Origin: Sthenelais limicola | Taxonomy: Eukaryota > Annelida > Polychaeta > Phyllodocida > Sigalionidae | Direction of reading: 5' to 3' | Length of the DNA: 64,000 bases | NCBI GenBank assembly: GCA_942159475.1 | Contig: OW804096.1 | Span: 17,136,906 to 17,200,905, forward strand | Part shown: positions 18,495 to 60,264 of the stretch, in pieces | Layout: each line of letters opens with the position of its first letter | Numbering within the stretch: the stretch's first letter is position 1 | Position numbers and translations under genes: made by a program | The notes under the pieces: model-generated | What the model saw: only the letters and a program-made list of their open reading frames with translations | What the model was told of the DNA's origin: nothing | Database searches by the model: none

Positions 18495-18825
18495 GCGATA
18501 ACATTGAAAAAAGCCTATACAACAGCGATTATGAATTTGGGTATAATATTATATAAGCAGAATGGATGGATAAACGTATTGTGTGTCAAACCTGTAAAGT
18601 TATGAGTGAAGAAGAAACAAAGTTTGTATTATTCAGTAATTGAACAGCTTATGGTGATCTGTGGAATTTCCAGACAAGGAATGTATATGTTATGTAAAGT
18701 TGTAATTATGGTACTTAATACTAGAACTATTGGAGGCAACGCAACAAGACATCGACAGAGTCAACATGCGTTTTAGTTATGATTGTTTAAATGCCTAATT
18801 TGAAATAAAAAAAATCAAAAAAATC
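18495..18825 (+). other. Possible 3' UTR with polyadenylation signal
   Basis: Unique AT-rich sequence after the TAG, ending with AATAAA at 18804-18809 and an A-rich run. It depends entirely on the exon call. Confidence 0.3.
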
Positions 18826-18900
18826 TGATAACACATCTGACCTGGTAGAGATCTGGGACTGAAAAGATTTTTAGGTAGAGTATAAGCATCATTGTACAAA

Positions 18901-19490
18901 TGTGATGTGTTACAGGAAAATGAGTCACATGTCGCTAAACAATGATATTTTTCAAAGAATCCTTGCTCAGAACGTTCTTGTTTTTGGGGTGTGCACCACT
19001 GTTTGTAGCATGAACGCATACCTTAAACTCCATCCGTGTATATCTAACTACTTTACCATAGTGAGTGAACATTATAGCATTATTACCCCTCGGTTTGGTG
19101 GTTTGTTGTGGTCTGGGTGGTCATAGACACTCGAGGGCTTGCCCATACAGACCACAACAAACCACCAAACCGAGGGTAATAGTGCTTTTAGACGCGATTT
19201 GATCAGATCAACTTATTAATACCAAAATAGAAAGTTTACCAACCTGTACAATTATTTATTTTAATCAAATATGCCTCGCAAAACAGGTATTAAGTGCGCC
19301 GGAAGTTTACCACTTAACTCCGCCAGGTATTATAGGTGGCGCCATCCTCTATGGAGTTTTAACACTGCCGTTCTATAGTCCACACTTCAGATACTTCCGT
19401 CGATACACAGGTGGTCTATAGGTAAGAAACTACCTCCCAGAATCTGATCAAATCGCGTCTAACACGAAATATTGCCTCAAATTTGATCTC
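18901..19490 (-). mobile_element. Family B element interrupted by hairpin element H1
   Basis: Left terminus TGTGATGTGTTACAGGAAAA at 18901 and B body to about 19068. After H1, CGAAATATTGCCTCAAA matches B's CAGAAATATTGCAAA. The rest of the right half is lost. Confidence 0.65.
19072..19463. mobile_element. Hairpin-headed element H1 (copy 1)
   Basis: Layout: a long hairpin at 19081-19181 (arms of 35 and 34 nt, one bulged C, loop containing TCGAGGGCTTGCCC), then GTGCTTTTAGACGCGATTTG at 19182. The inverted pair AGACGCGATTTGATCAGAT (19190-19208) / ATCTGATCAAATCGCGTCT (19442-19460) bounds a GC-richer, non-coding interior. Ends and loop motif match H2 at 57996; the stems do not. Not assigned to a known superfamily. 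Helentron-derived elements also pair subterminal inverted repeats with a hairpin at one end, but usually a much shorter one. Confidence 0.65.
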
Positions 19491-22400
19491 TAACTCAGGT
19501 TCTTCAACACAGCTCAAGAGGCTAGACTACAGAGGCAGTTCTGAAGCCTGCCTACCCCTTGCCACAGAAGGCCCGCTCTTTTTTTTTTGGACATATTTTA
19601 TTCAGGTAAACAGGCAGTTACAATCTTCACTCTTCACAAAAATAATTAAATAATTGTGATTTTCATCATGACCTTTTTTATTATCTTGAGCGCATAACAA
19701 GCGAAGATTGAGCAAAACCAGAACGATCTAATGGAATCGGTTCCTGCGCTTTTTGTACGCTCTAAAAAGTGGCTGTGTGCGCTTCTTTAGAAGAGCGCAG
19801 GACGTTGCGCTCATATCTGCCGTGTTTGATTTGAGAGCAGCAACACAAGGCTCTTTCTACCTGTTAAATTTGCGTTATTTGATAGAATTAGTGAAGGTGA
19901 ATTGTACATTTTCTGAAGATCTGACTCAACATATCAATAACACTAATATGTTGAAGCTATATTTGATAAAGCAGTTCAAACTTGTATATGGGTCAGTTTT
20001 TAAGAAAATGTACAATTCAACTTCGCCAAACGTCTCAAATTACCCACATTTCAGACGAAAATAAAGTTCAAAAAACAGTTCAACCTAACCAAACAGATTG
20101 CTAGAATCAATGCAATGCCGAATATACTCGAATTTACCTAGTATTGACCAAATTGCAGCCTAATTTAGCAAAATTTACTAAATGTGTACAGCTGCCAATT
20201 GTACATTTTCTGAAAATCTGACCATTATAATACAACAGTCACCAAACTTGTTGGTTTCAGTTGCAACGATTTTTTTTTTAAAGTTTGTATTCCCGAAAAT
20301 TTTAGTATATTCGGCATAGTAATCATTCTAGCAATCTGTTTGGTTAGGTTAAAGTACATTTTGAAAGTCATTTTTGTCTAAGATTTGCGTTATTTGAAAG
20401 GATTGGTGAAGATGAATTGTACATTTTCTGGAAATCTGACCCTTATACTAACAGCAGCCAATTACAGGCCTGTTTAGCAACAAGTGCTCATTGGTCAAGT
20501 CCTCAGAAAATGTACAATTCATCTTCACCAATCCTCTCAAATAATCCAAATTTAAGACAAAAATCAGGTTCAAAATACAGTTCAACATAACCAGACAGAT
20601 GTATTGAATGAATACAATACAGAATACACTCAGATATACTCAGTATTTGCCATTTTTCACTCTAATTTAGCAGAATTTGAGAGATGTGTAGAAATGTAGA
20701 TTGTGCATTTTCTGAAAATCTGACCCTCATGTGGCAGGGCGGGCGTGCATGTAGAGACATTAGGGAGATTTAGCAACCACAACGCACCAACACAACACAA
20801 CACAACAATAACGCATCCACTAACTATTTGTATAATATTACCGTTGTGGGGATATCTTGAGAGGCACTAGGCCGATGGCATCTGCATTGCAGGACTCTTG
20901 AGACTGTAACTATAATAATGACCTAATATTTAGTGGATGCGTTAGTGTTGTGTTGGTGCGTTGTGGTTGCTAAATCTCCCTATTTTCTGGCGCCTTCACC
21001 CACTATACTACTAACACGGCCCGGTTTACAGCAGGGCAATTACCGACCTGTTTAGTAACAAGCGCTCATGTGGCAGGGCTAGGCGGGCGTGCATAGAGCG
21101 GGTCAGAATTTCAGAAAATGTACAATTGGAAGCTCTACACATTTAGTATATTCTGCTAAATTAGACCGAAAATCGTCAGCACTTGGTTACTATTTTATAT
21201 TGCCTTGATTCAAACAATCTGTTAGGTTATGCTGGACTGTATTTTCAACCTGATTTTTGTCTTAAATGTGGGTTATTTGAGAGGATTGGTGAAGGCGAAT
21301 TGTACATTATCTGACAATCTGACCCATGTACAGACCTACTGCTCACTGTACACCTACTGCACGAGTTACTCACTACATGGGTCAGATTTTCAGAAAATGT
21401 ACAATTCAACTTTGTCAATCCTCCCAATTAACTCAAATTTCAGACGAAAATAAAGTTCAAAATACAGTTTAACCTAACCAAACAGATTGCTAGAATCAAT
21501 GCAATGCCAAATATACTCTAATTGACCTAGTATTGACCGAATTGCAGCGTAATTTAGCAGAATTTACTAAAAGTGTACAGCTGCCAATTGTACAATTTCT
21601 GAAAATCTGACCCACATGAGCTACTACACACGCTCATTATTTACACACCATACAGCCGCGGGTTGGCTATGCATACGCATGCTGCTTTATGGGCCAGAAC
21701 TACAGATAATGGGCAACTCTACACATTTCTGCTAATTTAGGCTGGCAATGATAAATTGGTCAGATTTTCAGAAAATGTACAATTCAACGTCACCAATCCT
21801 CTAGATTAACCGAACAGAAATGAGCTTCAAAATACAGTTTAACATAACAGAACTGGTACTTTAAATCAATACGATCCCAAATATAGCCAGATATACCGGG
21901 TGTTCATTATGTTTCAGCCGAATGTAGCCGAATTTCCTAAATGTGTAAGGCTGGCAATTGTACATTTTCTGAAAATCTGACCTAAATACTGGATATATAT
22001 CCGAGTATATTTGGTATTGTATATTGGACCCTTATATGGGTCAGATTTTCAGAAAATGTACAATTGCCAGCTGTACACATAAATTCATCAAAATTAGGCT
22101 CCAATTTGGGCAATACTAGGTAAATTCGAGTATATTTGGCATTGCATTGATTCTAGCAGTCTGTTTGGTTAGGTTGAACTGTATTTTGAAATTAATTTTC
22201 GTCCAAAATGTGGAATATTTGAGAAGATTGGCGAAGACGAATTGTACATTTTCTGAAGATCTGACCCTTATATATATATAAAGGGAGGGAGGCAAGAGAG
22301 AGGAATAAAGGGAACAGCGCATTGATGGAGGATTAATGGCTGACATTGAGGACAGGAAGAGGAAGAGAGTCTCCGGCTGTTGATAATGTTGAACACAAGG

Positions 22401-24241: not shown

Positions 24242-24818
24242 GCGATAACATTGAAAAAAGCCTATACAACAGCGATTATGAATTTGGGTATAATATTATA
24301 TAAGCAGAATGGATGGATAAACGTATTGTGTGTCAAACCTGTAAAGTTATGAGTGAAGAAGAAACAAAGTTTGTATTATTCAGTAATTGAACAGCTTATG
24401 GTGATCTGTGGAATTTCCAGACAAGGAATGTATATGTTATGTAAAGTTGTAATTATGGTACTTAATACTAGAACTATTGGAGGCAACGCAACAAGACATC
24501 GACAGAGTCAACATGCGTTTTAGTTATGATTGTTTAAATGCCTAATTTGAAATAAAAAAAATCAAAAAAATCTGATAACACATCTGACCTGGTAGAGATC
24601 TGGGACTGAAAAGATTTTTAGGTAGAGTATAAGCATCATTGTACAAATGTGATGTGTTACAGGAAAATGAGTCACATGTCGCTAAACAATGATATTTTTC
24701 AAAGAATCCTTGCTCAGAACGTTCTTGTTTTTGGGGTGTGCACCACTGTTTGTAGCATGAACGCATACCTTAAACTCCATCCGTGTATATCTAACTACTT
24801 TACCATAGTGAGTGAACA

Positions 24819-25210
24819 TTATAGCATTATTACCCCTCGGTTTGGTGGTTTGTTGTGGTCTGGGTGGTCATAGACACTCGAGGGCTTGCCCATACAGACC
24901 ACAACAAACCACCAAACCGAGGGTAATAGTGCTTTTAGACGCGATTTGATCAGATCAACTTATTAATACCAAAATAGAAAGTTTACCAACCTGTACAATT
25001 ATTTATTTTAATCAAATATGCCTCGCAAAACAGGTATTAAGTGCGCCGGAAGTTTACCACTTAACTCCGCCAGGTATTATAGGTGGCGCCATCCTCTATG
25101 GAGTTTTAACACTGCCGTTCTATAGTCCACACTTCAGATACTTCCGTCGATACACAGGTGGTCTATAGGTAAGAAACTACCTCCCAGAATCTGATCAAAT
25201 CGCGTCTAAC
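24819..25210. mobile_element. Hairpin-headed element H1 (copy 2)
   Basis: Identical to 19072-19463; hairpin at 24828-24928. Confidence 0.65.
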
Positions 25211-25347
25211 ACGAAATATTGCCTCAAATTTGATCTCTAACTCAGGTTCTTCAACACAGCTCAAGAGGCTAGACTACAGAGGCAGTTCTGAAGCCTGCCT
25301 ACCCCTTGCCACAGAAGGCCAGTACATAAAACATACACAATACACAT

Positions 25348-57676: not shown

Positions 57677-58004
57677 AAACAGTATTAATTTGTATTATAT
57701 TATATATCCTGTGCATTGTCGGTGATTTATTTAATAAATTACAGACAATAGAAAAAACTCAAATCAAGCATGTAAGACTTGTACGTAGAAGGTTTACTTG
57801 TGAATATAATTGATATATGTATTTAGAAACACAATATGAAGTCAACAATGTTATATAAAAGTAAATCTTTAGTTACTAAAAACAAAATGACTAAAAACAA
57901 AAACAAGAAGAGGTGATTCAACAAGGTTGAAAACAGTGTAAATAGCTATTATATCTACTTTAACATGGAGTACACCATGACTTAGTTTAGTAAATTATTT
58001 AAGG

Positions 58005-58123
58005 AATAATTTCCGAGGTTTTTTCTGCTCGCGGTGTCTATAGCGTCAGGGAGTTCGAGGGCGAAGCCCGAGAATTCCCTGACGCTATAGACACCGCGAG
58101 CAGAAAAATCCGAGGAAATTATT
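58005..58123. repeat. H2 hairpin, roughly 50-nt arms
   Basis: CTGCTCGCGGTGTCTATAGC (58025) pairs with GCTATAGACACCGCGAGCAG (58084) and the pairing continues through CGTCAGGGA. The apex GAGGGCGAAGCCC matches H1's GAGGGCTTGCCC. The base AATAATTTCC/GGAAATTATT is paired as well. Confidence 0.93.
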
Positions 58124-58274
58124 GCTTTTAGAAGAGAATTGATGAGATTTCCTTAATGTTAGAGCAAAAAAGATAGACAAACCTTCTTTATTCCGTCAAA
58201 AAACCTCAAAAAACCTCAAAAAACCTCCGGAATATCGTGCTAAGCCATGAGAGTCGTCAGCCTTTCTATGAGAC

Positions 58275-58772
58275 CGGAAGTGATTGCACTGCTTTAATCG
58301 GAACCTATATAATACCGCGACGGCTGACCGAATGAAGCTTCAGCCACAACAGCCAATCAGAGGAGCGTATTCGCTAATGTTTATGTTCAGCTAGCCGGCC
58401 TGTTTTCGCAAGGTTCCGCTGCTTGCTATCCAAAGCATCGGACACCGCGTTAGTCGAAATCTAAATGATACCGCGACGGCTGGCCAAGTGAAGTGGGCGG
58501 GGCTTAGCGGAGAAACAGCCAATCAGAGGTGCGTATTTGCTAATGTTTATGTTCAGCGAGCCGGCCTGTTTTCGCAAGGTTCCGCTGCTTGCTATCCAAA
58601 GCATCGGACACCGCGTTAGTCGAAATCTAAATGATACCGCGACGGCTGGCCAAGTGAAGTGGGCGGGGCTTAGCGGAGAAACAGCCAATCAGAGGTGCGT
58701 ATTTGCTAATGTTTATGTTCAGCGAGCCGGCCTGTTTTCGCAAGGTTCCGCTGCTTGCTATCCAAAGCATCG
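58275..58772. repeat. 166-bp tandem repeats with GC box and CCAAT box
   Basis: Two apparently identical units (58441-58606, 58607-58772) follow a diverged unit (58275-58440). Each full unit has GTGGGCGGGGC (Sp1-type GC box, 58494 in the first) and AGCCAATCAGA (CCAAT box, 58517), about 20 bp apart. The arrangement resembles an enhancer or promoter repeat. Function is inferred from motifs only. Confidence 0.85.
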
Positions 58773-58866
58773 GACACTTCCGGTTCTCGAATGCCGTGTT
58801 GCGTGTGTCTAGGGACTTAAAAAAGAAATAAATAAAAGATTTGAATCGGTAGAAATGATTTAAATA

Positions 58867-59141
58867 GTGTTTGAGCCCGATAGCGAAGATTTAGTCGACG
58901 GGAATCGAGTAATAAATGAATGGCGAGTTCAGAAGCTATACGTGCAACCGGAAGAGATGTGGAGATCCTTCGGCATAGCCACTCATGTGCACATTCACTT
59001 GGCGTTGCATTGTGTACGGTGGCCTATATCGCGCACGGAGGATTTCATTCGAAAGTGACCCGCACGTCAACAAACGAAGCATCTACGAAGAGATTTGAAG
59101 CAAAATTCAGCCGCAACGTCCCCACCAGCTTCATAGGGTAG
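58867..59141 (+). other. GC-richer stretch with two overlapping short frames
   Basis: Frames of 63 codons (MFEPDSEDLVDGNRVINEWR..) and 73 codons (MASSEAIRATGRDVEILRHS..) overlap downstream of the 166-bp repeats. Neither is recognised. Both cannot be coding, and possibly neither is. Confidence 0.25.
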
Positions 59142-59212
59142 TGGTTAGACTGCTCGACTTCGGCGGAGAACGTCGAGGGTTCGAGCCTCGTCAGGTCCCT
59201 TGGCTTTTTTTT
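59127..59212 (+). ncRNA. tRNA-like Pol III unit (A box, B box, T-run)
   Basis: A box TAGGGTAGTGG at 59134-59144, B box GGTTCGAGCC at 59178-59187, and a run of eight Ts at 59205-59212 that could terminate Pol III. The T arm folds (CGAGG/CCTCG). The D arm and acceptor pair poorly, and the anticodon region carries extra bases. A functional tRNA is therefore unlikely; a SINE head or tRNA-like promoter fits better. Confidence 0.5.
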
Positions 59213-59216
59213 CATT

Positions 59217-59455
59217 CTCATGGAGACGGAACTCTTGAGACTTGATCTATGGAACTCTTGAGACTTGATCTATGGAGACGGAAGTCTTGATCTATGGAGA
59301 CGGAAGTCTTGAGTCTTGATCTATGGAGACGGAAGTCTTGATCTATGGAGACGGAAGTCTTGATCTATGGAGACGGAAGTCTTGATACTGATCTATGCCT
59401 GATCTATAGGGACTGATACTGATCTATAGGGACGGATCTATGGGGACGGAAGTGG
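59217..59455. repeat. Roughly 22-bp minisatellite CTATGGAGACGGAAGTCTTG
   Basis: About nine units with TGATCTATGGAGACGGAAGT core, degenerating to TGATCTATAGGGACTGATAC. Confidence 0.92.
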
Positions 59456-60264
59456 TTTAGAGGGAATCTATAAAGAAAAAAAACCTCCCAGAATCTCATC
59501 AGATCGATTCTAATAGTAAATAATTCTACCTTCCAGAATAAAGATCTAACTCTAGACGTGATAAGATCGAAGCTAAGCATCATACATTTGATGTCTTAAA
59601 GTAATGAAAATATAACATCAATTCAAGGCGCTCTTGGAAGATCTATGCTTGTACAGAAAGTGACATGACCTTTTTCTATGTAACTGTATTGAAAGTTGGA
59701 AATAAAAATACTTATATATATATATATATGACCCATTCTCACGAAAGTAGTGCAACCCCCCATTTTTCCCATATATTGGTCAATATCTTGGTCGATATTG
59801 ATCTTAAATACATAGGAATTGATTAGCTAAATCCGTCTTGGTATAAGCATTATGAAAATATATACTTTTCTGTATCTGTGATGTATATTTTTTTAATTAT
59901 GTACTATCAAATCAAGGAAAAGAACCCAATAATCACTACCAAACTCACAGTTATGTTGGAAAAAAATATAGTTGAATCAATATGCATAAATAAAATTTGT
60001 GCCATAGAATGGAGGGCTGTAAATCGAATAAAATGATGTATTAAGTTTGAATATAACTGCAGAATTTTTGCTCCTAAGTCAGTTAATGTGAAAATGGCTA
60101 AATTGAGGTGTAAAAACGTCGCCAGATAAAATAGCTGTGCTTTCTAAAATAATTAAATTAATTTTGTCTAAGAAGTGGGATTTCATAAGCATAGGTTGGC
60201 AGACAGATGTATACCACCATTGGAATATTCTCAGACCTTAGGTGACTGTGATCATAATAATCAG

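Follow-up and report, generated by a model that had tools for sequence, protein, structure and literature searches.

Hairpin-ended elements of Sthenelais limicola, their Crypton-type recombinase and a proposed folded recombination site

The window described here is a stretch of 64,000 nucleotides from the polychaete Sthenelais limicola (GenBank assembly GCA_942159475.1, contig OW804096.1, positions 17,136,906 to 17,200,905, forward strand). It carries members of two families of mobile elements, H1 and H2, which begin with a long hairpin and end with TCTAA. On balance we regard both as non-autonomous Crypton-type elements that are moved by a DUF3504 tyrosine recombinase (YR) and whose ends form a folded recombination site. 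A sequence-only reading of the window had listed five features common to H1 and H2, and these are present in the sequence at the coordinates given: the left-end pattern, the hairpins, the tip GAGGGC(TT or GAA)GCCC, the inner motif, and the right end followed by TCTAA. The genomic copies compared below sort mostly into the families H1, H2, R and H3. The features in the window are as follows.

57999..59513, + strand: complete, non-autonomous H2 element, 1515 bp; left hairpin end TTAAGG, right end TCTAA
58005..58123, + strand: H2 terminal hairpin, 119 nt (from the fold)
58013..58018, + strand: CCGAGG on the H2 outer arm, opposite the inner-arm CCGAGG with a tandem G.A mismatch (from sequence, fold and alignment)
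58056..58072, + strand: conserved H2 tip, CGAGGGC-GAA-GCCCGAG
58110..58115, + strand: CCGAGG on the H2 inner arm (from sequence)
58124..58149, + strand: GCTT followed by the H2 left subterminal inverted repeat, TTAGAAGAGAATTGATGAGATT
58348..58777, + strand: H2 internal tandem repeats with a 166-bp unit, also found in H3 elements
59492..59513, - strand: H2 right-terminal inverted repeat; the + strand reads AATCTCATCAGATCGATTCTAA
19073..19462, + strand: complete H1 element, 390 bp; left end TATAGC, right end TCTAA
19077..19185, + strand: H1 hairpin, about 111 nt, a deleted form of the ~127-nt hairpin of the family
24820..25209, + strand: second copy of H1, within a larger duplication

The H2 element is inserted into its host target at ATTAT^TAGTAAATAAT, where the caret marks the insertion point. 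Its termini (TTAAGG, and TTAGAA for the reverse-complemented right end) do not match, so there are no strict terminal inverted repeats; an inverted repeat of ~21 bp is terminal at the right and lies ~126 bp internal at the left. No YR coding sequence was found in the window copies by tblastn, and an Rfam search of the window gave no match. The H1 element and its flanks lie in a near-identical duplicated segment (18800-19560 and 24500-25310). Inside H2, ~600 bp including the 166-bp repeat sequence (58300-59075) are ~91% identical to H3 though the ends of the two families differ, and the sequence suggests that internal modules may have been exchanged between them. H2 also contains a tRNA-like stretch at 59130-59200, TAGTGGTTAGACTG...GGTTCGAGCC, which we take to be box A/B-like; no tRNA was called in the window by ARAGORN.

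Genomic copies and insertion site

A search with the conserved ends and the tip motif, as proposed in the sequence-only reading, covered a genome of 1.13 Gb, almost entirely in nine large contigs, and gave more matches than chance would. The left motif was found 1,194 times and the right end 1,009 times (at most one mismatch), and the tip with a 3-nt loop had 513 exact matches, whereas each reversed control pattern had 0. The copies compared comprised 30 in genome order, 30 chosen by H2 similarity (including the window copy) and 20 tip-selected places. Of 66 left ends, 11 lacked a canonical outer boundary and were excluded.

Host flanks were tabulated for 46 complete elements with canonical ends and distinct left flanks, a set that includes the flank-duplicated loci L032 and L033 and tandem copies. 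The host sequence 5' of the element reads T C T A/G H (T at -3 in 40, A or G at -2 in 44), and that 3' of the element reads N7 T A R (T at +8 in 30, A at +9 in 40, A or G at +10 in 36). Together the flanks make up a palindromic target, TCTA-N8-TARW, whose spacer is entered by one base at the junction, and in these 46 elements no length of target site duplication (TSD) exceeded the shuffled expectation. Because mirror-symmetric cuts in the target would stand six bases apart, the junction position suits a tyrosine recombinase with a 6-bp overlap, the overlap of these enzymes being given as 6-8 bp (PMC3212892). The ends also coincide with a presence/absence difference: the copy L015 lies in a 71-bp tandem array, and its joined flanks match, at 1-3 mismatches, ten neighbouring units of the array that are empty sites (CCATCTAT^AACCCTGTAGTG).

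The TCTAA end of an existing copy serves as an exact insertion site too, and half of the target is thereby recreated. In two such tandem pairs the copies are different members, their aligned parts being 84% and 93% identical. At L112 and L034 the end of another element (...CCAAAATGGACTAA) is abutted by an H2 or H1 copy, and at L112 a DUF3504 recombinase is located ~2.6 kb away.

Recombinase partner and Crypton identity

Candidates for the autonomous partner that the sequence-only reading had proposed to look for are long elements of the H3 family, which have the same end architecture and encode a Crypton YR. H3 left and right ends, when paired by coordinate, delimit four long elements, and when the genomic copies of one tyrosine recombinase are ranked by closeness, the first four lie inside exactly these elements (4/4). 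The residues R-H-R-Y are present in the H3 recombinase, and L109 has the catalytic set complete. Among the four copies, one is without R146 and another has one stop. The protein matches PF12012 (DUF3504) with 47.5 bits against a cut-off of 29.7, and its predicted fold is Cre-like, with the structure of QRICH1 as the top Foldseek hit. A recombinase of 58% identity lies 1.65 kb upstream of an exact H2 right end (element C9:57422506). The TCTA-like host flank and the TCTA in the right end together form a short direct repeat, as Cryptons have at their termini (4-6 bp). Since the defining features are present (YR, DUF3504 type, no TSD, short direct repeats), we assign the elements to the Cryptons, an identity that is well supported and that extends to the non-autonomous elements by their ends.

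Cryptons of the CryptonA type (animal DUF3504) have these features in common with the present elements and likewise lack strictly terminal inverted repeats. The present elements add a long terminal hairpin with a fixed tip, the ~21-bp subterminal inverted repeat, the palindromic target TCTA-N8-TAR, a strict polarity and many non-autonomous copies. The Crypton survey PMC3212892 uses neither 'hairpin' nor 'stem-loop' in its main text, and searches of the open PMC literature gave no description of hairpin-ended Cryptons.

The sequence-only reading had looked to Helentron-derived elements (HINEs), i.e., rolling-circle elements with subterminal inverted repeats and a palindromic 3' terminator. The HINE and Helitron2 layout indeed matches in its subterminal inverted repeats, one-sided palindrome, tandem core and lack of a TSD (PMC4067079, PMC7492417), and one identical tandem dimer would suit it. 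The Helraiser hairpin is reported to retain ~90% activity with a replaced stem and to behave as if deleted when its loop is changed (PMC4778049), a precedent that belongs to a different enzyme class from the present YR. This derivation was nevertheless dropped, and we consider it very improbable, on account of the palindromic target, which is not a T-rich TT site, and the YR in all four long H3 elements; the palindrome is, moreover, ~120 nt long here and short there. No Rep/helicase partner was found: on C1, 0 of 30 Helitron Rep places lie within 20 kb of any of 179 exact ends (among the matches listed), and no H1 or H2 ends occur in the 2.5 kb on the 3' side of Rep at ten Helitron loci or in one 5' region. 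RPA-like open reading frames (ORFs) were seen by eye in several of the Rep 3' regions.

Several other candidates were set aside. An 11-kb copy with a 949-aa ORF (C2:18003550-18014690) looked autonomous and proved to be an H2 copy plus a ~10-kb terminal inverted repeat (TIR) transposon (TSD TTA), which itself contains a second TIR transposon; the expected ends are absent around four other copies of the ORF. An unclassified TIR transposon with a 949-aa protein (L093 and L094 1535-6794, C2) has ~409-bp TIRs and numerous genomic relatives (51 matches); the protein has no Pfam match above the cut-off and appears PIN/XPG-like and Cys-rich by eye. The ORFs near L043 gave no significant family, and an ORF close to L056 belongs to an EF-hand gene of the host. 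Replitrons are reported with TSDs of 2-8 bp (PMC10741241), and none were seen in these elements.

Hairpin folding and stem change

Folded as DNA, the H2 hairpin reaches -61.2 kcal/mol (z -14.6) and the H1 hairpin -47.8 kcal/mol (z -12.3), values equaled by 0 of 200 shuffles in either case. The base CCGAGG (opposite CCGAGG or its complement) and the tip CGAGGGC-loop-GCCCGAG are kept in H1, H2, R and H3. CGAG opposite CGAG gives tandem G.A mismatches at both base and tip; such motifs are stable in DNA.

The claim of the sequence-only reading that the stem sequence is free stands for the H1 mid-stem, which has no detectable similarity to the others: for the outer arm between base and tip, 400 of 2000 shuffles score as well as H1 against H2, 1215 as well as H1 against R and 146 as well as H1 against H3. 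It does not stand within families, each of which has a common stem sequence, nor among H2, R and H3, whose mid-stems are homologous (shuffles as good: H2-R 0, H2-H3 1, R-H3 0, each of 2000). The H2 and H3 ends are ~74% identical in an alignment of 141 columns. Copies with the same stem sequence, which that reading had named as counting against it, were found: the H2 hairpin is identical in 28 of 61 long-hairpin records, the identical copies having been picked up through their H2 similarity and a few loci being counted twice.

Eight aligned H1 stems have 98.4% of their cells paired and six pairs altered on both sides, which 0 of 500 shuffles match. Slid controls gave 0 or 1; with further pair types, the H1 value is reached by 3 of 500 shuffles. 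The 30 departures from the commonest pair in H1 and H2 comprise 13 two-sided changes, 10 changes to G.T and 7 broken pairs, so that pairing is preserved in 23 if G.T is counted as a pair (8 H1 and 5 H2 distinct stems, with R and H3 left out; the counts are column states and not independent events). Transversions make up 10 of the 13 two-sided changes, whereas the 17 one-sided changes comprise 11 transitions and 6 transversions (Fisher p 0.033). To judge from the sequences, this pattern fits copying from arm to arm better than stepwise wobble compensation.

Such copying could make the pairing a mere mutational by-product, in which arm-to-arm template switching, a process able to do so (PMC8794818), keeps the palindrome perfect and the hairpin has no function. 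The excess of transversions among two-sided changes speaks for this explanation, as do the alternation of CCGAGG and CCTCGG in one arm (the outer in H1, the inner in H3) and a hairpin at L084, where H1 is lengthened and doubled by a second tip-like palindrome as expected of a template switch. We hold it to be unlikely, since H1 has tip and base in common with H2, R and H3 but a mid-stem without detectable similarity to theirs. The suggestion of the sequence-only reading that pairing is selected, for example for recognition, is upheld in part: pairing is kept as stems change and recognition is plausible, but arm-to-arm copying fits some of the changes. Its other suggestion, stems copied from elsewhere, was not borne out among the copies compared.

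Two loci, L086 and L088, have long diverged hairpins with the same tip and different flanks, L086 starting with a tRNA-like sequence. At L078 an H3 hairpin end continues into inner sequence of an H2 end, possibly through an exchange of ends.

A proposed folded recombination site

Eight joined ends with a full hairpin were folded (three H1, three H2, one R, one H3). In the predicted folds the two inverted repeats pair with each other, the hairpin extends the helix, and one to three bases are unpaired at the TCTAA/T crossover point. The joined ends are predicted to form a single cruciform in which a small bulge marks the crossover. They resemble in this the attC site of integrons, which is folded, with an unpaired bulge at the crossover between helices and a variable stem; CTXphi attP is a similar case. 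Integrons and the present elements share a tyrosine recombinase, a palindromic end (with a predicted fold in which an unpaired bulge separates two helices at the crossover), a variable stem and one polarity. They differ in that the present enzyme is a Crypton YR and not IntI, that no integron platform is present, and that use of a folded strand is here a prediction. Integron integrases recombine single-stranded with double-stranded DNA asymmetrically, which requires replicative resolution (PMC4792948).

We propose that an element would leave in the form of a circle or single strand and that its joined ends would fold. The YR site would consist of the inverted repeat (half-site 1), the small crossover bulge and the hairpin base (half-site 2); the folding scaffold would be provided by the long stem together with its fixed tip. 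One strand would be exchanged at the target and the product resolved by replication, as in integron cassette insertion. Stems would change in step because structure and not stem sequence is needed, and their pairing would be maintained by selection, by template switching between the arms, or by both. Joined-end folding would explain a stem that changes while pairing, base and tip are retained, and use of the folded strand would account for the strict insertion polarity as well. That animal Cryptons recombine a folded single strand, with attC-like joined ends and an integron-like asymmetric YR reaction in a eukaryote, is put forward tentatively from these models.

Polarity also bears on a more conventional account, clearly less probable though by no means far-fetched, in which the elements are ordinary Cryptons: a double-stranded circle would be inserted by conventional two-strand YR exchange, strand-biased repair would give the polarity, and the hairpin would be a binding site or replication structure. 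The Crypton YR and the target symmetry hold equally there, and Cryptons are proposed to move through a circular intermediate (PMC3212892). With a 6-bp overlap that lacks homology, however, both reciprocal forms would be expected. Among 60 distinct right ends, with tandem junctions counted once, only one is followed by the left hexamer, and this is the tandem junction; the reciprocal product is found at 0 of the 59 non-tandem right ends. In the joined ends folded from H1, H2, R and H3, furthermore, the crossover coincides with the predicted bulge.

Several observations weigh against recombination of a folded strand by the DUF3504 enzyme. The YR link covers the H3 ends and one H2 end (the C9 element, right end only); a YR with H1 ends was not found, and on C1, where there are 10 YR places, that of H3 alone is within 20 kb of any of the 179 listed exact-match ends. 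Two YRs of 80% identity (C5:61253025 and C6:103221052) are without an exact H3 right end nearby, and one of 55% identity (C7:528193) has no such end in 2.4 kb. The hairpin is truncated or rearranged in 14 of the 30 genome-order copies as judged by eye, in partial agreement with the hairpin-lacking copies that the sequence-only reading had named as evidence against it, and may be dispensable or lost after insertion. Shuffle controls on related sequences do not equal probabilities. At L043, a left end for which no right end turned up, the outermost six bases may represent a reciprocal product, and polarity could come from biased repair. One tandem pair is identical at 1349 of 1349 positions, as rolling-circle replication would also give. 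The circle or single-stranded intermediate is postulated and not an observed form.

Movement of Cryptons has so far been largely inferred; the present copies define the ends exactly, show the motif of the target, point to a recombinase and lead to a structural hypothesis. Where subterminal inverted repeats occur together with a palindrome, an element moved by a Crypton enzyme could be misfiled as a Helentron derivative. To our knowledge, tyrosine recombinases that act on a folded strand are known only from bacteria and their phages; if the proposal is true, such recombination would extend beyond them.
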